From: a virus
Length of the DNA stretch: 26,650 nt
IMG/VR virus record: IMGVR_UViG_3300030385_001328
Coordinates: 1 to 26,650 of that record
Reading direction: 5' to 3' (one strand)
Shown: positions 3,802 to 26,579 of the stretch, in pieces
Position numbering within the stretch: position 1 is the stretch's first letter
Layout of the letters: every line of letters begins with the position of its first letter
The notes under the pieces: model-generated
Seen by the model: only the letters and a program-made list of their open reading frames with translations
The model's database searches: none
Told to the model about the DNA's origin: nothing
Translations under genes and position numbers: made by a program

Positions 3802-3810
3802 AAAATAAAA

Positions 3811-4782
3811 ATGCCAATACCTAAGCCAAACGAAAACGAAACCGAACAAGATTTTTTGGATAGGTGTATGTCCGATGATACAATGCAAGAATATGAAAAC
3901 GATGAACGGCTGGCAATATGTAAAACCCAAATTGAAAATAAAAATACCAATGCTATGGCAACAAAAAGACACATAAAAGAAGTAATAGAGGACAACGAAA
4001 CTATCACAATAGTTTACGAAAAGGACGAAAATTTTGAGGGCTTAAAATTAAAAGATGAAGATATGCCAGATGAGGGAGATGAAGAAACAATAGGGGAAGA
4101 TGAAGAAACAGATGGCGAGGAAGAAGAAGAATATAACAGCTTCCACCCTACCGAAATAAAATCAGTATGGGATAATAACATTACAACTGAAAAACGCTTT
4201 TACAATGTAGCCACACGCATCACCAAGCGCAATGGTAAACAAGTAATTGAAGGACACGCTGCAATTTACGATAGCCCTAGTGAAGATCTGGGTGGATTTA
4301 CCGAGCGCATAAAAAAAGGCGCTTTTGATAATGTTTTAGATAATGATGTGCGGGCTTATTTTAACCACGATCCAAATTTTATCTTAGGGCGCACAACCAG
4401 CGGAACGCTACGAATAAGCGCTGATGATACTGGCTTAAAATATGAATTTGATGTGCCTGATACAACTGCTGGACGCGATTTGGTAGTTAGTATGAAGCGC
4501 GGGGATATAACACAAAGCAGCTTTGCGTTCACTGTGGAAGAAGATTCTTGGGAACAAATTGAGGGCAAAGATATTAGAACAATAAACAAAGTAAAAAGAT
4601 TATATGATGTGAGCCCAGTTTCCATTCCAGCATATCCTTCCGCAAATGATTTAGCACTGGCGCAGCGTAGCAAAATGATTTATATAGATAAGCAAAAAAT
4701 GCAAGAAGAAACAGATGATGAGATTAATAGAAGTATTGAAAAATTGAAATTAAAAATTAACATATTAAAAAGAAAAAAATGA
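3811..4782 (+). CDS. Prohead maturation protease with an N-terminal Cys-motif extension and acidic linker
   Basis: This is the HK97-type prohead serine protease that trims capsid proteins during head maturation. The protease core is about residues 125-285: GHAAIYDSPSEDLGGFTERI, the catalytic His in FNHDPNFILGR (H186) and the catalytic Ser in ITQSSFAF (S236/S237), followed by VSPVSIPAYP. Two extra parts precede it. Residues 1-42 carry a phage motif (PIPKPNENETEQDF, RCM, RLAICKTQ) with cysteines C19 and C37. Residues 84-108 are almost entirely acidic. The C-terminus is a charged helix. The stop overlaps the capsid start (ATGA at 4779). An internal ATG at 3955 would remove the Cys motif. Confidence 0.92.
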   Translation: MPIPKPNENETEQDFLDRCMSDDTMQEYENDERLAICKTQIENKNTNAMATKRHIKEVIEDNETITIVYEKDENFEGLKLKDEDMPDEGDEETIGEDEETDGEEEEEYNSFHPTEIKSVWDNNITTEKRFYNVATRITKRNGKQVIEGHAAIYDSPSEDLGGFTERIKKGAFDNVLDNDVRAYFNHDPNFILGRTTSGTLRISADDTGLKYEFDVPDTTAGRDLVVSMKRGDITQSSFAFTVEEDSWEQIEGKDIRTINKVKRLYDVSPVSIPAYPSANDLALAQRSKMIYIDKQKMQEETDDEINRSIEKLKLKINILKRKK

Positions 4783-5999
4783 AAAAAAGTATAGAACTTA
4801 AAGAGCAGCGCTCTGATGTTATTTCTAAACTGGAAGCAATTAGCACTGCTGCTGATGCCGTAAAGGAAGAACTAACAACTGAGCAAACTGCTGAAATAGA
4901 TACGCTTTTAAAAGAAGCCGATGAAATTGAAGCAAAAATTTCAAGGGCTGAAAAATTAGAAGCCAATCTAAGAACAGCTGCGGCTGTTAGTGGCACTAAA
5001 ATAGAGCCACAAAATGATAAAGATCTTAATAAATTTACTTTTCAAGCTGCAATGCGTGCTGCTTTAACTGGTAAAGTTGAGGGGATAGTAAAAGAAATGG
5101 ATCAAGAAGCAAGAAACGAAGCTAGATACACTGGCCAAACTTACAAAGGGATTGCTATTCCAGCTTCTATTTTAACTAGAACTTGGCTTACTGCTGAATC
5201 CAATTCAGTTGATACGCAAAGCTGGACAGATCAATTAGAATCGAATCTTGTGCTTGCGAGCGCGGGCGCTAATTTTTACGGGGGTGTAAATGATTTAAAA
5301 TTCCCAATTTTTAGTGACATTGCTTCTACTTGGGTTAGTGAAGACGGATCTTCTGGTGCTGCGGCTGCGGCTGGAAACACCACTTCCGTAACGCTATCGC
5401 CAAAGAAATTGATTTCGGTAGTAAATATGACGCAAGAAAGTATCGTTCAAAATGCTTCCTTAGAATCAGCACTGCAAGCCAATATGGCTAGACAAATGGC
5501 TGGGGCTTTGGAATTTGCTTTACTTGATACTGCTGATGTTAGTAATGCACCGCTATCAATTTTCGCTGATGCAACGGCTGGACCGACTACTGTTCTAGCA
5601 GCTGATTGGATAGAAATGGAAACTGATACTTTGGCTGCTGGCGTTCAATTAGAAGGCGCGCGAATGGCTTACTTATTGGATATGGATGCTTATAAAATTG
5701 TAAAAACTTTGGCAACCGCACAAGTGGGGATTTTCCCAATTTGGGATAATGCTGATAAACGCTTAAACGGCTATTATGCTTTTGCTTCTGCTAATGTTGC
5801 TAATGCTGGCACAAGTGCAAAAGGACACGCTTTATTCGGAGATTTTGGAAAAGTTCATATCGCTCAGTTTGGCGGATTGGATCTCCTTTTTGATCCATAC
5901 ACCACAGCGACAACGGGAATTCCACGAATGATTGTTACTGGGCTTTTTGATGGTGATGCAGTTCAAAATGCGTCTTTTACAAAATTGATTGAAGCGTAA
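4779..5999 (+). CDS. Major capsid protein, HK97 fold
   Basis: This is the main shell protein of the head. The 406-residue product begins with a charged coiled-coil region (about residues 3-65), corresponding to the delta or scaffolding domain that the upstream protease would remove. The shell domain follows, with recognisable stretches YKGIAIPASILTRTW, LKFPIFSDIASTWVSEDG, TQESIVQNASLESALQ and IPRMIVTGLFDGDAV near the C-terminus. The length fits the family. A 240-base non-coding gap follows it, unusual in this tightly packed genome, so capsid expression may be set apart from the next genes. Confidence 0.95.
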   Translation: MKKSIELKEQRSDVISKLEAISTAADAVKEELTTEQTAEIDTLLKEADEIEAKISRAEKLEANLRTAAAVSGTKIEPQNDKDLNKFTFQAAMRAALTGKVEGIVKEMDQEARNEARYTGQTYKGIAIPASILTRTWLTAESNSVDTQSWTDQLESNLVLASAGANFYGGVNDLKFPIFSDIASTWVSEDGSSGAAAAAGNTTSVTLSPKKLISVVNMTQESIVQNASLESALQANMARQMAGALEFALLDTADVSNAPLSIFADATAGPTTVLAADWIEMETDTLAAGVQLEGARMAYLLDMDAYKIVKTLATAQVGIFPIWDNADKRLNGYYAFASANVANAGTSAKGHALFGDFGKVHIAQFGGLDLLFDPYTTATTGIPRMIVTGLFDGDAVQNASFTKLIEA

Positions 6000-6036
6000 A
6001 AGTTGCAAAATTTTTGCTTTGTTTTCGGGCGTTTTT

Positions 6037-6053
6037 GGCGTAATTTTTACGCC
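6037..6053 (+). terminator. Hairpin after the capsid gene
   Basis: GGCGTAA (6037-6043) pairs perfectly with TTACGCC (6047-6053) around a TTT loop. No T-tract follows, so it is a weak intrinsic terminator candidate. It may instead protect the capsid mRNA 3' end or be an RNA processing site. Confidence 0.4.
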
Positions 6054-6077
6054 TTAAACACCCCAAACAAGCAGAAA

Positions 6078-12821: not shown

Positions 12822-15800
12822 ATGCCGAACACTACTAGATTTTCCCAAACTTTTAAAAGTGATACAAAGGACTGGTTTATGGTGGCGATTCACGATGTAA
12901 ATTGGGATCATTTCCCCAGATCATTTATACTTGGGAAAAACCCAGTAACAATAAAATGGGATGGAAAAGGGGAAGATAGATTTTCGCCAATGATTGCATC
13001 GAGCGCAGTGGTGGAATTTGTTATTACTAATGATATGGAACGCCTTTATTGGCGGGGCGTTTTTGAAGCTTATCAAGAACAAACAGTGTTTTTAAGAATA
13101 ACTATGATTCCACAAGATGCCGATGTGCAGCCCGTGGATTTATGGAGCGGCTGGATGTTAGGGGATTTAGCTTCCGAGGAGCAAGACGATTTTCCTTGGC
13201 TTTTGAAATTAAAATTTACGGATTCAATGGCACTGCTAAAAGATCACCCATTTTGCAAGGATGATACAACTGATCCAATAACAAACTACGAAGATAACTA
13301 TGCTTCTTTTATGTATTGGATGGTAGATAGTTTGCAAAAAATAAATGTGGGTGGATTTGATCCTTCTTATAGAGATATTACGCCAATGGGTAATCAAAAG
13401 CCATTAAAAACTTTTGTCCACTGGTATAATATCACAGTCGGACTTACAATGGCTTACGATCCTATCCACGCTTTTGGATGCCGCCCGCGCCCGTTCTGGG
13501 ATGTTGCAGATAATGGGGCAATAAAACCGAAAAACTGCTATGAAGCGATAGAAATGTTTTGCAAAGTTTGGGGCGCGCGTTTTGTGTTTTTTAATAATAA
13601 ATTTCACTTCATACAGTTAAACTATTATTTTCATTCCAGCTTTGATGTAACAAATGATCCACAAATTGGATTGGGTTATATTTATGATTGGGATTTTTCA
13701 GCATCGCAAGAAATCTTTGCAAGCGAAACGAATTTAGAATATGTAACCAAAATCCGCCCTAGTAGTTTTAAAACAGTAAACACTTTAATGGGTGGAAAAC
13801 AAACATTTTATCCGCCACTGAAAAGAGTGATTTCAACTTACGGGCGCTGGATGGGGATTAATCTTTTAACTACTTGTCCAGCTACCGCTTCCACTAGTAA
13901 TGTAGATGGCTGGCGGGGGAATATAGATATGGGCGAAAGCTATGATTTAGGAACTTTTGAAGAAGATAGTAAAATGGTTTTCCGTTTTAAGTGGCTTACC
14001 AAAGTAACAGCGCAAGGTGAAGGGTATAATTCACACGATAATATGCAGCAGCCCAACTGGCCAATCGGATCAATGTTTGGATATGCTGGCGCACCCTACA
14101 ATCCACAAACCCCGTGCGTAGAAATGGAATGTTTCCCCGAAATGCGATTCACTTTACAGCTTACAAATATCACAACGGGGGATGCTCACGCAGTTGGATT
14201 CTGGACTAGTTCGGGGGGCGGTGGCTATTTTCAAAATCCTGGCGCTAATAGTTGGACTACTTATTTGGCAAATCCTTTTCCCACTTGCAAAGTAGATGGG
14301 AGTGATCCAATTAATTCTGGCTGGCTCAGTGGAAGTTGGCCAACTGTTTTAACACCAAACTGGCTGGCCGATATGAACTTTGAGATGGATTTAAACCCCG
14401 CGGGAATAGCTGGGATTGATCCTTCTGCGGGTGGCTATTCTTTAAGCATCCATTTTTTTGATGTGTTTTCAGCGGGTGGTGGTGGGCAAGCCACTTTTGT
14501 TTCGGGCGGTGCAACCTATGGCAATAGCTGGGGATCACCTCCTTGGCCTACGGGAAGCACCTTTGGGGGACATGGAGTAGCAAATGCTGGAAACGCTTGG
14601 CTAGGAAGGATGAATGAAAAATTAGATTTGTGGTGCGTAGCACAAAATGCAAATTTCACTGGTGCATATATTGATGTAAAAGGAATAAACACGGGAACGC
14701 TTGGCGCAGATATAACTTATGATCCCGCGCTGCAAGGATCGGCCTTATATCCAAGCGGCTTAGAAGCTGGCATATTTCATATTGACGCGAATGGCCAATA
14801 CACTGGCGCGCCTTTTACTTGGATAATAGATAACAATGGAACGGGCGCAACAGTTGTAGCTTCCACGCTGGAATATAAAACGGGTGCTTTATTATTTGGT
14901 GATGGCCGCCAGCCGCATAGCTTTGGTGCAATTAAGTGGGATAATTCGGGAAGCTGGGATGAGCCATTATATACGGGATGGAATAGGGATCTTCCTTCTG
15001 GTGGAAGTTACATTACAGAACTACTTGGAAAAGAAATACTATTAGGGCAAATGAACTTGACTTCCAAATTTGATTTAACAGTAACCCGTTCCACGCAATT
15101 AATACAATTTGTAGATAGAGTTTCACCGATCACCCTGTTGCGATATCGTGGAATGCACATACTACCTTTGCGCTGCGCTTGGAATTTAAGGACTGATGAA
15201 TGGAAAGGAAAATGGTTTGAAGTAAAAGAATCAGCCGATGATTATGCCAACAATAACGATGCGCTTGAAGCGGGAAGTGCGGATATTGATGGCGTTCCCG
15301 CTGGCGGAACTTTACAAAAGCGCGCACCAACGCGGAGCGGGGGTGGATTATTTCTTACGCGCACATCAGCAGAAATAAGCGCAGCCACAGTAACTTCTAT
15401 TCCTATTAATCCAATAACAATAGGCCAACTAGAACCAAACACAGATCAAGGATTATCAGGTATTTCTTTATTAAAAACGGGGGATCGCGTTTTATTCTTT
15501 GCACGGCTAACGGGAACACCCGCCCAAATGGAAGGCACAAATGTATCAAACAAAATTTTTATGTTAATACTTGCAGCCGATCAAAAATACAATGATACTA
15601 CATTAACAGTTGAAAGCGTGACATTTGATTTAAATGTGGATGAAGGAAGCGCCTTATATTTACAGCAAAGCGAAATTGCACAAAAGGCGCTTGGCGCAAG
15701 AAATATAAATATAAATGAACTGAGCGATTTGCCAGCTTGCTGGTATGATCCAAGCGATACCGATACGCTTACAGTAACGAACGCAAATATAGTTTCAACA

Positions 15801-17997: not shown

Positions 17998-18109
17998 TGT
18001 TTAAAAAATAATCCTTTTATTTGCTTTGTGTTTGGAATGGTTTGTTATTTTAGCGCACTTGTTTTTAGTTAATAATAAATAGAAGAATCTTGTTTTCTTT
18101 GTTTTGTTG

Positions 18110-18152
18110 AAAACCCTAGCTTTGCGGGCTACCCGTTTAGCTGGGGTTTTTT
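18110..18152 (+). terminator. Strong intrinsic terminator closing the late block
   Basis: AAAACCCTAGCT (18110-18121) pairs with AGCTGGGGTTTT (18139-18150) over 12 bp with one G-T pair. The loop contains a second stem, CGGG-CTA-CCCG (18125-18135). Six T (18147-18152) complete the 3' arm. The A-run on the 5' side would give weaker termination in the other direction. Confidence 0.85.
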
Positions 18153-18225
18153 CAGTTGGCACAGCACCCCCGCTAAAAATCGCCGAAATATTGCCCTTAT
18201 TTTTATGCTAATTGCAAAAAAAAAC

Positions 18226-18243
18226 GCTTTTAACCTAGTAAAA
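18226..18243 (+). repeat. 18-bp operator-like element, copy 2
   Basis: GCTTTTAACCTAGTAAAA matches the reverse complement of 6167-6184 exactly. It is 75 bases upstream of the first early gene. The interrupted palindrome TTTTA...TAAAA suggests binding of a dimeric regulator or an origin-binding protein. Confidence 0.6.
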
Positions 18244-18318
18244 AAAGTTAATAAAGTGTAGCTATTAACATTGTTTTGCGTATTATTGCAGTATTATTAA
18301 TCAATTAAAACAAAGAAA

Positions 18319-18693
18319 ATGAAAGCAACAAAACAAACAGCAAGCGGAACATCTTTTCACGGTGTTACAATCAAAACAAGGCCAATAGATTTAATCAGTT
18401 TGGCAAACAAATTAGGAGCAGAATATTACGATTCTAATGATGGCAATGATAAATGTAATTTCGATTTTGAATTTGAAACTTCAAAAGGAGATGTTTTTAC
18501 TATTTACGATTGGAAGAAATACCGCGTTTTAGAAGAAGATGAAAAAGTTATTTTTAACATTGGGGCAGCTGATCGTAGTATTTCGCAAACCGCTGCGCAG
18601 GAATTAAAATTAACTATAATAGAAACCGAAAAAAAATCAAAATTCAAACAAGCGGGAGAAAGCGCGGGTTTTGATATGCGCGGAATAAACTAA
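18319..18693 (+). CDS. Hypothetical early protein sharing a C-terminal motif with the gene at 19188
   Basis: The 124-residue product is acidic in its middle (YYDSNDGNDKCNFDFEFETSKGDVFTIYDWKKY), likely beta-rich, then has FNIGAADRSISQTAAQELKLTIIE. The last part, AAQELKLTIIE, recurs as AARELKLTIIE in the protein at 19188-19448, and the DNA encoding it is nearly identical (31 of 32 bases). Function is unknown; small early proteins often modify host processes. The leader AACAAAGAAA before the ATG is shared with the 19188 gene. Confidence 0.75.
   Translation: MKATKQTASGTSFHGVTIKTRPIDLISLANKLGAEYYDSNDGNDKCNFDFEFETSKGDVFTIYDWKKYRVLEEDEKVIFNIGAADRSISQTAAQELKLTIIETEKKSKFKQAGESAGFDMRGIN
18592..18623 (+). 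repeat. 32-bp intragenic repeat, copy 1
   Basis: This starts GCTGCGCAGGAATTAAAATT and differs from 19353-19384 at one position. It encodes AAQELKLTIIE. The flanking DNA is not similar between the two genes, so the repeat has sharp borders. Confidence 0.75.
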
Positions 18694-18700
18694 AAACAAT

Positions 18701-18745
18701 AACGGCAAAAGCCCCAGCCAACTAATAAGGGCAAACAAAACAATG
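18701..18745 (+). repeat. Start-associated leader repeat, copy 1
   Basis: This 45-base unit runs from AACGGCAAAAGCCCCAGCC through AACTAATAAGGGC to the ATG of the next gene (18743-18745). It is identical to 19457-19501 and differs by one base from 19694-19738. GGC-AAAA-GCC can form a small hairpin, and GCCC could instead pair with the later GGGC. It begins just after the stop of the upstream gene. Confidence 0.85.
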
Positions 18746-19147
18746 GAACTAGCAACAAAACAACAACTTGACAGAATTAATACAGCAAGCGCCAGCAAGG
18801 GCTACATCAAGCGTCGCGGGCTTTTAAGCTTACAACAGCAGATGCAAGATTGCATTTCAACTTGCGAATGTGAGGGGGAAAATTCAAGCAATACGGAAAT
18901 CGGTTGCTCTTGGACTTATGGTGACCAGCTTGCTTACATTGTGGACAAGCTATATTTTAAATTATTTCCTAAAACCAAACCTTATGAAGTAGGAGTTGAG
19001 GTGAAAGAAAATCCAAGCAAATCAGAAAAATTAACTTGGGTGGAATACAAAGTAGAAGCAGCATCAGAACAAGAAGCAAGAAGAAAAGCATCTGATTTAT
19101 GTGGTGAGGAATTTGGACATAATCCTTGGACAACTGAAATAATATAA
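18743..19147 (+). CDS. Hypothetical early protein behind leader repeat 1
   Basis: The 134-residue product starts MELATKQQLDRINTASASKG, a helical segment, followed by a Cys-containing part (DCISTCECEGENSS) and a C-terminal half with KLTWVEYKVEAASEQEARRKASDLCGEEFG, which looks like a small alpha-beta domain. I recognise no family. The ATG is the last codon of a 45-base leader repeat, which fixes the start. Four cysteines in the middle (DC, TC, EC, GC) could bind metal, but spacing is not classical. Confidence 0.75.
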   Translation: MELATKQQLDRINTASASKGYIKRRGLLSLQQQMQDCISTCECEGENSSNTEIGCSWTYGDQLAYIVDKLYFKLFPKTKPYEVGVEVKENPSKSEKLTWVEYKVEAASEQEARRKASDLCGEEFGHNPWTTEII

Positions 19148-19153
19148 CAATCA

Positions 19154-19171
19154 GGGGGGCGAAAGCCCCCC
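19154..19171 (+). promoter_or_regulatory. GNRA-loop hairpin, divergent form of the leader repeat
   Basis: GGGGGGC-GAAA-GCCCCCC is a perfect 7-bp stem closed by a GAAA tetraloop, seven bases after the upstream stop and 16 bases before ATG 19188. GGC-GAAA-GCCCC and the later ACTAA align with GGC-AAAA-GCCCC and ACTAA of the 45-base repeats, so it is probably a diverged member of the same leader family. Confidence 0.7.
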
Positions 19172-19187
19172 ACTAAAAACAAAGAAA

Positions 19188-19448
19188 ATGACAAGATTTG
19201 CAAAGCACACACAAAATTTAAAACGAGAAGGAAACTTTATTATTTCCTATTCTACAAAAGTAGCTGAAATAATTGGCAGCGAATTACACAAATTGGATTG
19301 GAATGTAGATGGCAAAACAAGCAGCCCGACAACTACTAGGCATATTAACTATGCTGCGCGGGAATTAAAATTAACTATAATAGAGCCAAAATTAGCTACT
19401 GATTATGGCTGTGAATACGGGGATATAAATGGATACCCAAATTTATAA
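19188..19448 (+). CDS. Hypothetical early protein with HINYAARELKL motif
   Basis: The 86-residue product has a strand-rich N-terminal half (GNFIISYSTKVAEIIGSEL), then SSPTTTRHINYAARELKLTIIE. Small proteins with a T-T-x-H-I-N-Y-A-x-E-L motif are, as I recall, widespread in marine phages without known function. The C-terminal motif is shared with the gene at 18319. The start follows a stable hairpin and an A-rich leader. Confidence 0.75.
   Translation: MTRFAKHTQNLKREGNFIISYSTKVAEIIGSELHKLDWNVDGKTSSPTTTRHINYAARELKLTIIEPKLATDYGCEYGDINGYPNL
19353..19384 (+). repeat. 32-bp intragenic repeat, copy 2
   Basis: This matches 18592-18623 at 31 of 32 positions (A to G at base 8). It encodes AARELKLTIIE in the same reading frame as copy 1. 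Confidence 0.75.
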
Positions 19449-19456
19449 AAACAACT

Positions 19457-19501
19457 AACGGCAAAAGCCCCAGCCAACTAATAAGGGCAAACAAAACAAT
19501 G
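19457..19501 (+). repeat. Start-associated leader repeat, copy 2
   Basis: This 45-base copy is identical to 18701-18745 and ends in the ATG of the next gene (19499-19501). It begins nine bases after the upstream stop codon. Confidence 0.85.
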
Positions 19502-19687
19502 GGAACACTACAAGAACAAAGAACACTGCTAAGAATTAAAGATTTAAAATCAGCTGCAACACTTGATGCAGAAGAAACAGCCAAAGAAAAAAAGCGTGAA
19601 GAAATGAAAAAAGCGCTGCAAGTATTACAGAAACTAGCGATGGATAAAAACTTTCAGGGCTGGATAAATAAAATAGCAAATAAATAA
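19499..19687 (+). CDS. Small charged helical protein behind leader repeat 2
   Basis: The 62-residue product is almost entirely helical and highly charged (ETAKEKKREEMKKALQVLQKLAMDK), ending NFQGWINKIANK. It could be a coiled-coil partner protein. I recognise no family. The start codon is fixed by the leader repeat, and the stop is six bases before the next repeat copy. Confidence 0.68.
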   Translation: MGTLQEQRTLLRIKDLKSAATLDAEETAKEKKREEMKKALQVLQKLAMDKNFQGWINKIANK

Positions 19688-19693
19688 AACAAT

Positions 19694-19738
19694 AACGGCA
19701 AAAGCCCCAGCCAACTAATAAGGGCAAACAAAATAATG
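19694..19738 (+). repeat. Start-associated leader repeat, copy 3
   Basis: This 45-base copy differs from copies 1 and 2 at one base (T for C three bases before the ATG). It ends in the ATG of the next gene (19736-19738). Confidence 0.85.
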
Positions 19739-19924
19739 ATTGAACACTCAATGCCAAGCAACTTAGCAAACAAAAAAACCACGACGGAATTCCTAAACGA
19801 TCTAAGAGAAAGCGGAATAACTAATATGTGGGGCGCGGGTAAATACATAGAAAATGAATTCGGAGTTAGCAAAAACCAAGCAAAAGAAATATTACTGAGC
19901 TGGATGAAGAACTTTAAAAAATAA
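19736..19924 (+). CDS. Small helical protein behind leader repeat 3
   Basis: The 62-residue product contains TTEFLNDLRESGITNMWGAG, then KYIENEFGVSKNQAKEILLSWM. This pattern (FLxDLRESGxTNM...G...L..W) occurs in many small phage proteins of unknown function and looks like a compact three-helix or helix-turn-helix fold. DNA binding is possible but not shown. The ATG is the end of leader repeat 3. Confidence 0.72.
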   Translation: MIEHSMPSNLANKKTTTEFLNDLRESGITNMWGAGKYIENEFGVSKNQAKEILLSWMKNFKK

Positions 19925-19929
19925 ATAAA

Positions 19930-20241
19930 ATGGAAATGACTATACAAAGCACGCGCGTATTTACTGCGCTCAATGATTTAGCAACTAAATGGGAACGCGA
20001 TTTAGAGCAGCTAAAAAAACGGGAAAAGGAACTTAAAAAAAAGGACGATCAGCTTACAAGCTTGGCTGTTTCAATGGTGGCCGATAATACCTTAGAGCAT
20101 ATCATAGCCATACGGCAAGCCATAAGCGATTTACAACGCTTAGATGAACACGAAAAAACAATAACGAACAAACTGCTTGAAACTATGTTAAATCAAACCA
20201 ATTCTATTAACTTTAAAAAACCAAAAAAAGATGATAATTAA
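19930..20241 (+). CDS. Coiled-coil protein upstream of the SSB-like gene
   Basis: The 103-residue product has a long heptad-like region (WERDLEQLKKREKELKKKDDQ), then another helix (EHIIAIRQAISDLQRLDEHEKTITNKLLETML), and a basic end KKPKKDD. It should be an elongated helical protein, perhaps an oligomeric partner in replication. No named family is recognised. Its 3' end overlaps the SSB-like gene by 11 bases, suggesting coupled expression. Confidence 0.7.
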   Translation: MEMTIQSTRVFTALNDLATKWERDLEQLKKREKELKKKDDQLTSLAVSMVADNTLEHIIAIRQAISDLQRLDEHEKTITNKLLETMLNQTNSINFKKPKKDDN

Positions 20242-20707
20242 AACCAGCAAAGTAGTAAGCGTGCAATTCCTTAAAACTTGGGAAAGCCGCAAAGGAGATA
20301 CATTTTACGCACACCAAATCCAAATGGAAAACGGGGATTGCGGGGAATATTCCAGCAAAACAGAACAGCAAACCAAGTTTGTTGAAGGAGAACAAACGGA
20401 ATACGAATACCATCCGCACGACAGCTTCCCAAAAATAAAGCCGCACTATGCGCGGCCGCAATTTACGGGCAATGCTATGCAGAACGAAAATACAATGATT
20501 CCAAGCGTAGCAATAAAAGCAAGCGCTGTATTTAATGCGGGGCGTAGCGCCACTGCGCAGCAAGTTGTAAAAGACGCAAGAGTTTTTGCCGCTTTTATTA
20601 ACGAACAGCCAGCCGAAACCGCACCGCCAGCTAAAACCATTGCACAGTTAAAAAAAGATGATAGCCCTGAAATTGTAATTACGGATTCCGAAGACTCCCC
20701 TTTTTAA
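20231..20707 (+). CDS. Putative single-stranded DNA-binding protein
   Basis: The 158-residue product has the outline of an SSB. It has an N-terminal beta-rich region of about 65 residues (KVVSVQFLKTWESRKGDTFY, then IQMENGDCGEYSSKTEQQ), which could be a compact OB fold. A low-complexity linker with many Ala, Pro and Gln follows, and the acidic tail ends DSEDSPF, like the DxPF tip that SSBs use to recruit replication proteins. The next gene is a DnaA-like DNA-binding protein. The call rests on the tail and context, not on a clear family match. Confidence 0.6.
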   Translation: MIIKTSKVVSVQFLKTWESRKGDTFYAHQIQMENGDCGEYSSKTEQQTKFVEGEQTEYEYHPHDSFPKIKPHYARPQFTGNAMQNENTMIPSVAIKASAVFNAGRSATAQQVVKDARVFAAFINEQPAETAPPAKTIAQLKKDDSPEIVITDSEDSPF

Positions 20708-21097
20708 ATGGAAAACACTATACTAAAAGCGAAGCTTATTTTAGCGCAGATGTTTGGTATTGGTGTATCGCACTTTGCAAAACATAAAAGCCGAAAAAAA
20801 AATGTTATTGAAGCACGCAGATTTTTGATTTATTTTTTGCGTAAGGAATTGAAAATAACTTTTGTGGAAATTTGCAAATACATTCCCGCACTAACAAACC
20901 ACGCCACAGCAATACACCACTATAAAAGGATGAAGGAGCTGCAAACAGTTGAAGCGCCAATCCAACGCAAATACGAGGAATTTAAGAACACCCTTTTAAG
21001 TGATGAAACGCTATCTATCCAGCGTGAAATAATTGGCTTGGCAAATATGCGCACCCACTTATCCACACAAATAAACCAACTAAAAAAACTGTTATGA
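20708..21097 (+). CDS. DnaA domain IV-like DNA-binding protein
   Basis: The 129-residue product carries a region (about 28-80) like the C-terminal DNA-binding domain of DnaA: SRKKNVIEARRFLIYFLRKE, then TFVEICKYIP and the signature-like NHATAIHHYKRMKEL (compare DHTTVLHA in bacterial DnaA). It lacks the AAA+ ATPase domain. It may bind DnaA boxes to open the phage origin or titrate host sites. A perfect DnaA box lies in its own 3' end. The start directly abuts the SSB-like stop, and the stop overlaps the next ATG. Confidence 0.75.
   Translation: MENTILKAKLILAQMFGIGVSHFAKHKSRKKNVIEARRFLIYFLRKELKITFVEICKYIPALTNHATAIHHYKRMKELQTVEAPIQRKYEEFKNTLLSDETLSIQREIIGLANMRTHLSTQINQLKKLL
21059..21067 (+). other. 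Consensus DnaA box inside the DnaA-like gene
   Basis: TTATCCACA is a perfect match to the bacterial DnaA box. It lies in codons for H-L-S-T of the DnaA domain IV-like protein, near its 3' end. It is the only perfect copy I noticed by eye. It may mark part of a replication origin. Confidence 0.5.
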
Positions 21098-21369
21098 AAT
21101 TACAAATTACAAGTTTCAAGAATACGCCTAGCAAATACGGGGGATTTTTTTACTATGTATTTTTTAAGGACGATGCTGGCAAAAATTACAAAAGCTGCAT
21201 CTATCCAAATTGTAGGAACTTTAATAAGTGGCGCAGTGTTTTAAAACGCGGTGCTGTCTTGGATAATTTAATACTAAAAAGTGCGGGCTTAGTTGATGCC
21301 GATAGCAATTTTACTTTTTTAGGTATTAAGCAAAGCAAGCCAAAACCGCACCAGCCAAAACTATTTTGA
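21094..21369 (+). CDS. Small beta-rich hypothetical protein in the replication cluster
   Basis: The 91-residue product is beta-rich (KYGGFFYYVFFKDDAGKNY), then SCIYPNCRNFNKWRSVLKRG and a lysine/proline tail. The layout of short strands with a glycine turn is compatible with a small OB-like fold, so a nucleic-acid role is possible. The two cysteines in SCIYPNC do not form a standard zinc site. It is coupled by ATGA overlap to the DnaA-like gene. Confidence 0.68.
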   Translation: MKLQITSFKNTPSKYGGFFYYVFFKDDAGKNYKSCIYPNCRNFNKWRSVLKRGAVLDNLILKSAGLVDADSNFTFLGIKQSKPKPHQPKLF

Positions 21370-21370
21370 T

Positions 21371-21643
21371 ATGAAATTATTTGAAGATGATTTTGGTATT
21401 GATACCAGCGCACCAGATGCAACTGAAATAACTACAACGATTCTTTATTTTAGCAAAGAAGAAATGAAACTATTTAAACAGCTTTGCAAAAAAGGAATGC
21501 AAAAGGAAATGCTAAATTTAAGCACTGCAAATATATCCGATTTTTTATTACTAATATTAAAACAAAAATATGAGAATTTACAAATTAAAGAAACACCTGA
21601 CAGCAAGCCAATCAGCGAAACTCAAGGGAACTTTTTTGGATGA
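21371..21643 (+). CDS. Small hypothetical protein overlapping the TET/JBP gene
   Basis: The 90-residue product has an acidic N-terminus (LFEDDFGIDTSAPD), a helical middle (FSKEEMKLFKQLCKKGMQK, then ANISDFLLLILKQKYENL) and a polar tail. I recognise no family. The helical middle looks like a ribbon-helix-helix or small DNA-associated domain, but no motif decides it. Its last 74 bases overlap the dioxygenase gene in another frame, an unusually long overlap, suggesting that the two are linked. Confidence 0.65.
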   Translation: MKLFEDDFGIDTSAPDATEITTTILYFSKEEMKLFKQLCKKGMQKEMLNLSTANISDFLLLILKQKYENLQIKETPDSKPISETQGNFFG

Positions 21644-22433
21644 TAATAGTTATGATTTTATAATAGATCACGATGCTGATGGGTTTGATTTATACGGGAA
21701 TTTATTATTTAGATTTCGCAAAGGTGCTTTGCCTTATAATGTATTAAAGAACGGATATGATAGTTTTAAGGACAGCATAGAACTGACTGAGGGGCGCGGT
21801 ATAGCCAGCGGGAGCAGCCACAAAAGAATCTTAAAAGATGGAACAGTAAGTAAAATAACTGTGGGAAATAAAGTGCTAAGCGGGAATGTAGGTTTTATGG
21901 ATAGAAATTCAATGATACATTATTGCCGAAAAACCGCCTTTGCACGCAGATATTTTGATAAGTTTAAAGCTGGAATTCCTTTTGTAGAATTTATAGATAA
22001 AAAATATCAAGAACTTTGCCCCGCTTTTTATAAAAAACAAAAGGCCATTGCAGCTGGCACAAATAGAAACTATGTAATAGGAGACACCAGCTTTACAACC
22101 ATAACAGTAAACAAGAATTTTAGAACTGCGGTGCATAAGGACAGCGGTGATTTTGGTGAGGGATTTGGAAACCTTATTGTCTATCGCGAGGGGGATGTAA
22201 AGGGTGGCCTTTTTGTTTTGCCAGAATATAGGGTGGCCGTAGATATGCAGAACTGCGATATTCTTTTTGTTGATGTGCATAAATGGCACGGCAATACTGA
22301 AATCATTACCAGCTTGCAAAGCTTCCGCGTCGCTTTTGTTTTATATTATCGGGAATATATGTATAAATGCAAGCAACCGCGTGAAGAATTGCAAAGTGTA
22401 AAAATTAACAAAACTGGATATCTAACATTATGA
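21570..22433 (+). CDS. TET/JBP-family 2-oxoglutarate/Fe(II) DNA dioxygenase
   Basis: This enzyme should oxidise the methyl group of a 5-methylpyrimidine in DNA (5-methylcytosine or thymine) to hydroxymethyl, using Fe(II) and 2-oxoglutarate. The 287-residue product shows the TET/JBP pattern: an N-terminal FRKGALP and GRGIASG (75-81), then the iron-binding HxD in AVHKDSGD (H189, D191), the strand GGLFVLPEYRV, the distal His in DVHKWHGNT (H240), and the 2-oxoglutarate-binding Arg in SFRVAFVLYY (R253). Its stop overlaps the glycosyltransferase start (ATGA). ATG 21570 lies inside the upstream gene; no later ATG precedes the conserved core. Confidence 0.9.
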   Translation: MRIYKLKKHLTASQSAKLKGTFLDDNSYDFIIDHDADGFDLYGNLLFRFRKGALPYNVLKNGYDSFKDSIELTEGRGIASGSSHKRILKDGTVSKITVGNKVLSGNVGFMDRNSMIHYCRKTAFARRYFDKFKAGIPFVEFIDKKYQELCPAFYKKQKAIAAGTNRNYVIGDTSFTTITVNKNFRTAVHKDSGDFGEGFGNLIVYREGDVKGGLFVLPEYRVAVDMQNCDILFVDVHKWHGNTEIITSLQSFRVAFVLYYREYMYKCKQPREELQSVKINKTGYLTL

Positions 22434-23245
22434 AAATATTTATTTTTACTTACGATAGATTCAATGAAATAACAACTAGCAGATATTTTGCTCAGCAAGA
22501 TCATTTTGTTTTGTGCCATTCAAAACACGCAAAAGATAAATTCTTACAAAGTGGAAATATTTTTGGAGAAATTATTGCAACTGAAAATCCAAAAGGGCTA
22601 AGCTATAATAGAAACGCGGCACTTGATATGATGCAACCAAATGAATGGGCGCTATTTTTTGTAGATGATTTAATTAAACTTACAATTCTGCAAAGTTATT
22701 ACAAGCAACCAACAAATGAGCTAGATATTGATTTTGACAATGTTCCTAAATATAGGGAAGAATTTAAGACAGAATGTAGTGCAGCTTCTTTTTTACAACT
22801 ATGCCAAGAAACTATATTACACGCAGAAAAAAAAGGTTTTAATTTATGCGGTTTTAGCTTAACAGATAACCCACTTTTTAGAGCCAAGAAATATGGATAT
22901 TGGAGTTTATCAGATGGGCGGTGCTGGCTAATTAAAAAAACGCACTTACGATTTGATGAGAATATACAGCTTATAGATGATACTTGTTTTACCGCAATGA
23001 ACTTAAAAGAATTCGGTGGAGTTGTGAATAATAATTGGATATTGCCGAATTGCCAAAGATACACCGCTGGGGCTTTTGGTAGTATAAAGAAACGATTAGA
23101 ACAAAAGATAAAAGAATGTAAATATCTTACAGAAAAATATCCGCAATTTATTTCTTATGCTGAAAAAAGCGGTTGGCCACTTGGCTCTCATATTAAGATA
23201 AGGCAAAACAGAACATATAATAAAAATCAAAAAACTTTATTCTAA
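22430..23245 (+). CDS. TET-associated glycosyltransferase (TAGT-like, GT-A fold)
   Basis: The 271-residue product looks like the glycosyltransferases found next to phage TET/JBP enzymes. It begins with a GT-A type strand (MKIFIFTYDRF), has GLSYNRNAALDMM (56-68) and the metal/sugar-nucleotide site FFVDDLIKL (D79, D80). Later come the acceptor-side pattern WLIKKTHLRFDENIQLIDDT (D183, D184) and NLKEFGGVVNN. It should transfer a sugar to the hydroxymethyl base made by the neighbouring dioxygenase. The sugar cannot be read from the sequence. It is coupled to the dioxygenase by ATGA and to the replication initiator by TAATG. Confidence 0.82.
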   Translation: MKIFIFTYDRFNEITTSRYFAQQDHFVLCHSKHAKDKFLQSGNIFGEIIATENPKGLSYNRNAALDMMQPNEWALFFVDDLIKLTILQSYYKQPTNELDIDFDNVPKYREEFKTECSAASFLQLCQETILHAEKKGFNLCGFSLTDNPLFRAKKYGYWSLSDGRCWLIKKTHLRFDENIQLIDDTCFTAMNLKEFGGVVNNNWILPNCQRYTAGAFGSIKKRLEQKIKECKYLTEKYPQFISYAEKSGWPLGSHIKIRQNRTYNKNQKTLF

Positions 23246-26240: not shown

Positions 26241-26579
26241 ATGCCAACCTTCCCAAAGAAAAAAAAACGCCCGTGGATTCCCACACGCCAGCCCGCACCA
26301 ATAGGAAACACCAGCAGAAGCAAAACACCGAGTGATATCATTAAGTTTTATAATAGTAAACGCTGGCGCAGTTTAAGGGGCTACTACTTACAAATGAATC
26401 CGCTGTGTGAAATGTGTAAACGGGCTGGCTATATTACACCAGCCGAGGAGATAGATCACCGCACGCCAATAAGATTGGGAGGAAACCGCACCACACTGGA
26501 CAACCTTCAAAGCTTGTGCAAGCCGTGCCACGCCCGCAAAAGCGGACGCGAAGCCCATAGCTACAAAAATAAAAAATAA
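26241..26579 (+). CDS. HNH endonuclease, packaging-associated type
   Basis: The 112-residue product has a basic N-terminus (PTFPKKKKRPWIPTRQPAP), then YNSKRWRSLRGYYLQMNPLC. The zinc-binding cysteines are in LCEMC (C56, C59) and LCKPC (C93, C96). The catalytic motif is EIDHRTPIRLGG (D72, H73), N88 in DNLQ, and H97 in CHARKSG. HNH proteins of this size next to terminase genes assist cos cleavage in HK97-like phages. Here it ends 71 bases before the window edge, while terS is at the other edge. Confidence 0.9.
   Translation: MPTFPKKKKRPWIPTRQPAPIGNTSRSKTPSDIIKFYNSKRWRSLRGYYLQMNPLCEMCKRAGYITPAEEIDHRTPIRLGGNRTTLDNLQSLCKPCHARKSGREAHSYKNKK

Follow-up and report, generated by a model that had tools for sequence, protein, structure and literature searches.

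Small early genes of phages turn over rapidly, which raises the question of how a newcomer can be expressed correctly as soon as it arrives. The question bears on a locus where three small genes begin directly behind nearly the same sequence. The locus comes from one small uncultured phage, recorded in IMG/VR as a virus contig of 26,650 nt; the whole of this stretch was analysed and is called the window here, and its relevant features are listed in Table 1. The original prediction had described three near-identical 45-nt repeats, each placed between a stop codon and the next ATG and each followed by an unrelated gene, and in all these respects it was borne out. The copies at 18701–18745 and 19457–19501 were identical, and that at 19694–19738 was one base off (C to T at 19734). 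The repeat was slightly longer than originally given, each copy filling the complete gap between a TAA and an ATG; these gaps measured 49, 50 and 48 nt for W1, W2 and W3 respectively, whereas most other gaps in the record were overlaps or shorter than 20 nt. The copies numbered exactly three and shared the + strand; no fourth or degenerate copy was found on either strand of the whole record with up to three mismatches. A chance repeat was rejected, since the expected number of exact 44-nt repeats in the window was about 4e-17. An assembly artefact is unlikely, since a relative assembled in two other metagenomes has two variant copies in front of ATGs.

Table 1. Coordinates of the leader copies, neighbouring genes and associated elements in the window
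Feature	Coordinates	Strand	Description
Terminator-like hairpin and T run	18104–18155	+	Closes upstream operon; read by eye
ORF A	18319–18693	+	124 aa; first gene after terminator-like hairpin
Segment J	18592–18623	+	32 nt, inside ORF A; repeated at 19353–19384 inside ORF A' (97%)
Leader copy W1	18694–18742	+	Entire gap from stop of ORF A to ATG (18743) of ORF B
28-nt core TAACGGCAAAAGCCCCAGCCAACTAATA of W1	18701–18728 (also 19457–19484, 19694–19721)	+	From alignment of five copies
ORF B	18743–19147	+	134 aa; behind W1
Hairpin GGGGGGC-GAAA-GCCCCCC	19154–19171	+	7 bp; upstream of ORF A'; also in the related phage, with loop changed
ORF A'	19188–19448	+	86 aa
Leader copy W2	19449–19498	+	Entire gap from stop of ORF A' to ATG (19499) of ORF C
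ORF C	19499–19687	+	62 aa; behind W2
Leader copy W3	19688–19735	+	Entire gap from stop of ORF C to ATG (19736) of ORF D
ORF D	19736–19924	+	62 aa; behind W3

The proteins encoded behind the three copies (B, C and D) showed no similarity to one another. No relative was found for ORF B, which is regarded as a real gene on account of its length and codon-position composition. The N-terminal part of ORF C was related to positions 5667–6056 of the related phage described below, where it likewise stands behind a leader copy, while ORF D weakly resembled a hypothetical Synechococcus phage S-CBWM1 protein (38% over 42 aa, E = 7e-4). Upstream of the first copy, residues 2–97 of ORF A matched a Flavobacterium phage immuto protein at 48% identity. 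ORFs A and A', which precede copies W1 and W2, were otherwise different genes, but are not independent, because segment J is common to both. The terminator-like hairpin follows genes in the usual late positions, and the leader genes are the first ones after it. That they are early, as originally described, was retained as probable from this position only.

Elsewhere in the window, a terminase was located at 688–2265 and an HNH gene at the right end (26241–26579). A TET/JBP-family oxygenase (21570–23245) adjoined a weakly matching TET-associated glycosyltransferase, a pair that suggests hypermodified cytosine in the phage DNA; the TET gene recurred in 33 IMG/VR loci. The 129-aa product of 20708–21097 resembled, below threshold, the C-terminal DNA-binding domain of DnaA (E = 2e-6) and may serve in replication or in origin binding. 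By its TET protein, the nearest named phage was Nonlabens phage P12024L (68%), which, together with the resemblance of ORF A to the immuto protein, makes a flavobacterial host likely.

When the IMG/VR, phage, plasmid and GTDB genome collections were scanned, the leader was found outside the window in one related phage lineage only. This lineage, L004, comprised two contigs from different metagenomes that were 99.9% identical over 8.7 kb, and two independent leader-bearing phages are known. In L004 the leader was present twice, as La, which leads into the ATG of an A' gene, and as Lb, which does so for a C gene. Hence, all five known copies ended at an ATG and were oriented in the direction of the gene, and the linkage to start codons was confirmed in a relative. 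Exact and relaxed DNA patterns applied to IMG/VR recovered the same two contigs, the remainder being unrelated and mostly G+C-rich contigs in which the relaxed-pattern matches did not look like leaders. No leader was found in the GTDB genomes, short BLAST against phages and plasmids returned chance-level matches only, and protein scans with 20231–20704 and 21094–21366 added no contigs to the same two. A scan of the GTDB genomes with the TET protein gave no relative, and self-comparison of the TET-related IMG/VR loci revealed no comparable leader repeat.

Alignment of the five copies divided the leader into two parts. A core, TAACGGCAAAAGCCCYAGCCAAYTAATA, was nearly invariant, with 2 of 28 columns variable, while 8 of the 16 ATG-proximal columns varied across the same copies (Fisher p = 0.002, for few, related and non-independent sequences and computed post hoc, with the alignment already seen). 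The stronger conservation of the core is suggestive only. The core had a G+C content of 46%, against 38% for the genome, and a fixed internal spacing; it ended in TAATA and was followed by a stretch varying in sequence and length, such that the conserved part lay about 15 nt upstream of the ATG at a variable distance. The stretch directly before the ATG was A-rich and predicted to be unpaired, and the region from -25 to +17 around the starts behind W1, W2 and W3 gave folding energies of 0, 0 and -2.2 kcal/mol. In Flavobacterium, translation is raised by adenines ahead of the start, and Shine-Dalgarno (SD) sequences are not used (PMC6847099); the A-rich, SD-free starts predicted here would fit such translation.

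Comparison of the window with L004 by BLAST showed that gene content changes at the leader. Most long blocks shared by the two phages had 75–86% nucleotide identity, while three shorter blocks stood out: 206 nt covering the 5' part of A' (95.6%), 145 nt covering the 3' part of A plus the leader W1/Lb (96.6%), and 185 nt at 18138–18322 that ended at the first ATG (90%). The window has the order A-J-leader-B-hairpin-A'-J-leader-C-leader-D, and L004 the order X-hairpin-leader-A'/A-leader-C-F. The 3' end of A is joined through the leader to B in the window but to C in L004, and a leader before A' is present in L004 only; the leader is therefore a place of gene-content change. This accords with the earlier suggestion that such repeats let gene cassettes be swapped, since both the genes and the presence of the leader differ between the two phages, and a role for the leader as a recombination joint is favoured by these alignments. 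Segment J is a further recombination joint between the two arrangements. Within L004, an identical 22-nt segment occurred at 5703–5724, in the C gene, and at 3803–3824, in a small holin-like gene; compared with the window, it lengthens C by in-frame residues.

Folding of W1, W2 and W3 was no better than that of shuffled sequences (z = -0.06, -0.04 and -1.40), the predicted structure consisting of two 3-bp hairpins with stability no greater than shuffles. The best consensus fold of five similar copies contained no covariation, and in an alternative helix one pair was compensated in La (C-G to U-A), a result that 106 of 500 shuffles equalled. No Rfam 15 family was matched at the gathering score, and other matches were at chance level, none of them over the leaders. 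An antisense terminator was rejected, given that the minus strand of the leader folded no better than shuffles. ORF A' was preceded in both phages by a leader with a stronger hairpin than those in the repeat leaders; the one in the window aligned with W1, and only 3 of 2000 shuffles did as well. In L004, the hairpin before A' is followed by a repeat copy, while in the window it stands without one. A shared translational or RNA-binding role, as originally proposed, is possible for the leader.

The explanation preferred here, tentatively and at somewhat short of an even chance, is that the repeat is a portable 5' leader of small, probably early genes, which acts on the mRNA and doubles as a recombination joint. 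It would serve as a start module before several such genes of one co-directional operon. The A-rich stretch would provide an ordinary flavobacterial translation start without an SD sequence, while the GC-containing core may work at the mRNA level, as a small element that is structured or bound by protein, thereby isolating or regulating initiation separately for each cistron. The same 50 bp or so at each gene border would present a natural homology tract for gene gain, loss and exchange, a role supported by the differing arrangements of the two known phages. Support for a portable leader comes from the five copies in two phages that end at an ATG, before ORFs that are unrelated within the window; an action on RNA is favoured by three points: no promoter could be recognised, the core contains G+C, and a hairpin variant stands before A'. 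The same explanation is weakened by the failure of the leader to fold better than shuffles or to show covariation in its consensus fold, by the small sample of two independent phages, whose similarity is partly due to recent recombination, and by the resemblance of start-associated repeats in other flavobacterial phages to promoters. Moreover, a core about 15 nt upstream with variable spacing to the ATG fits a promoter at least as well.

It is rather unlikely, but consistent with part of this evidence, that the leader functions as DNA, being a phage-specific promoter or a protein-bound operator that serves each small gene separately, with the core at approximately -35 to -10 and a short 5' UTR. 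A 28-nt core of fixed internal spacing that ends in TAATA and precedes a stretch variable in sequence and length is what such an element might look like, and the precedents in the flavobacterial phages immuto 3-5A and P12024L raise the standing of this reading. Against it, the sigma-A promoter consensus of flavobacteria, taken from PMC9723704 as TTG/TAnnTTTG, had no match on the + strand of the leaders; a search of the coding strand inside W1–W3 for TTG-N16/21-TAnnTTTG found no strict or one-mismatch site. The leaders also lacked the CGT box reported for ECF-type promoters (PMC9723704) and matched neither the immuto nor the P12024L motif. Furthermore, the core is richer in G+C than the genome around it, and none of the window proteins scanned, which were part of the set, was seen to be a sigma factor.

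A passive origin, which we consider unlikely, would require no sequence-specific function at all. The leader would be an ordinary spacer with an adequate start, copied along with genes and homogenised by duplication, gene conversion and short-homology recombination. The near-identity of the window copies is what recent duplication predicts, and W1 is situated within the 145-nt tract shared with L004, in which the leader is conserved to about the same degree as the gene; segment J, which is intragenic and no leader, behaves likewise, and it is at the leader and J joints that gene order differs. One simple duplication nevertheless fails to explain W1 and W2 together, because unrelated sequence lies between J and the leader. 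Also against a mere spacer are a core so much more conserved than the ATG-proximal part, albeit in few and non-independent sequences, and the retention of the leader at gene starts by both phages despite the divergence of most long blocks. The selected function suggested originally stands in part: the near-invariant core speaks for it, while the copies in the window have the appearance of recent duplication or conversion and W1 belongs to the tract almost identical to L004. The change of gene content at the leader means that the near-identity of copies partly reflects recent ancestry; since some of the similarity is due to recent recombination, long-term selection is only partly shown.

Highly improbable is an antisense target, in which a phage RNA acting in trans, such as a transcript that stops at the late terminator, would bind the leader so that late transcription silences the genes: the late terminator does resemble the reverse complement of the leader (that of L004 shares AAAAGCCCCAGC with it, and its duplex with Lb, at -38.5 kcal/mol, was the strongest of any non-leader site in the part of L004 searched), but this was rejected because the pairing was not distinctive in the window, where several unrelated sites gave duplexes of equal or greater strength (-33.3 and -32.4 kcal/mol, against -31.6); the pairing of La was weaker, and a likeness of this sort is general among G+C-rich terminators.

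A more far-reaching proposal, which is quite doubtful, is that the leader is a novel control element, of RNA or DNA, that a phage or host factor reads; it would co-regulate swappable small genes and provide homology for plugging genes in, with correct expression of whichever gene ends up behind it. If true, the combination of expression signal and recombination homology in one leader would answer how acquired genes come to be expressed.

The closest analogy proposed originally was with the start-associated sequences (SAS) of mycobacteriophages. In cluster K these are 13-bp sequences, GGGATAGGAGCCC, that contain an SD core, lie 3–7 bp from the start and occur in 11–19 copies per genome (PMC3203893). 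Like SAS, the leader is a short repeat found in a single orientation at the starts of unrelated, non-structural genes in one phage group, and a putative role in translation initiation has been proposed for both. In contrast, the leader is about 50 nt long, fills the whole gap, lacks an SD sequence and occurs in two to three copies per phage. Membership of SAS was rejected, as the consensus GGGATAGGAGCCC was neither present in the window with up to two mismatches nor enriched there; the single three-mismatch match, on the other strand at 12904, was fewer than expected by chance. The comparison is fair as an analogy, but the sequence is not SAS.

A second comparison is with the repeats of Flavobacterium phage vB_FspM_immuto_3-5A. 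In 35 kb of this genome (MW353176, 55000–90000) there were 24 motifs of the form TTG-N17/20-TATNTTTAG, 20 of which sat 53–62 nt before annotated starts, mostly of small genes, and most were followed by a conserved leader; we infer that these repeats combine a sigma-A-like promoter with a 5' UTR. As in the window, near-identical leaders precede consecutive small genes and end in an A-rich stretch and the ATG, and one of them precedes a relative of ORF A. The sigma-A-like promoter of the immuto leaders is not found in the window leaders, and the immuto motif profile had no match in the window.

P12024L (NC_018272) likewise has repeats running up to the ATG of several genes; there, AAAACAA-N16/17-CGTTAATA-ATG had six strict copies (ATGs at 179, 3031, 5412, 24771, 26011 and 27612) and a weaker seventh (22090). 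Its CGT box, together with the annotation of gp35 with sigma-70 region 2, suggests an ECF-like promoter. It differs from the window leader in that several elements precede genes of the structural region and in that the motif is absent from the window; AAAACAA-N14/18-CGTTAWTA placed 2–6 bases from an ATG was found in neither the window nor L004. The window leader has the placement of the immuto and P12024L elements and the motif of neither. The occurrence of start-associated repeats with unrelated sequences in several flavobacterial phages suggests that the arrangement may be convergent. The leader has the look of a portable module for starting genes, similar in kind to those of other phages and distinct in sequence.
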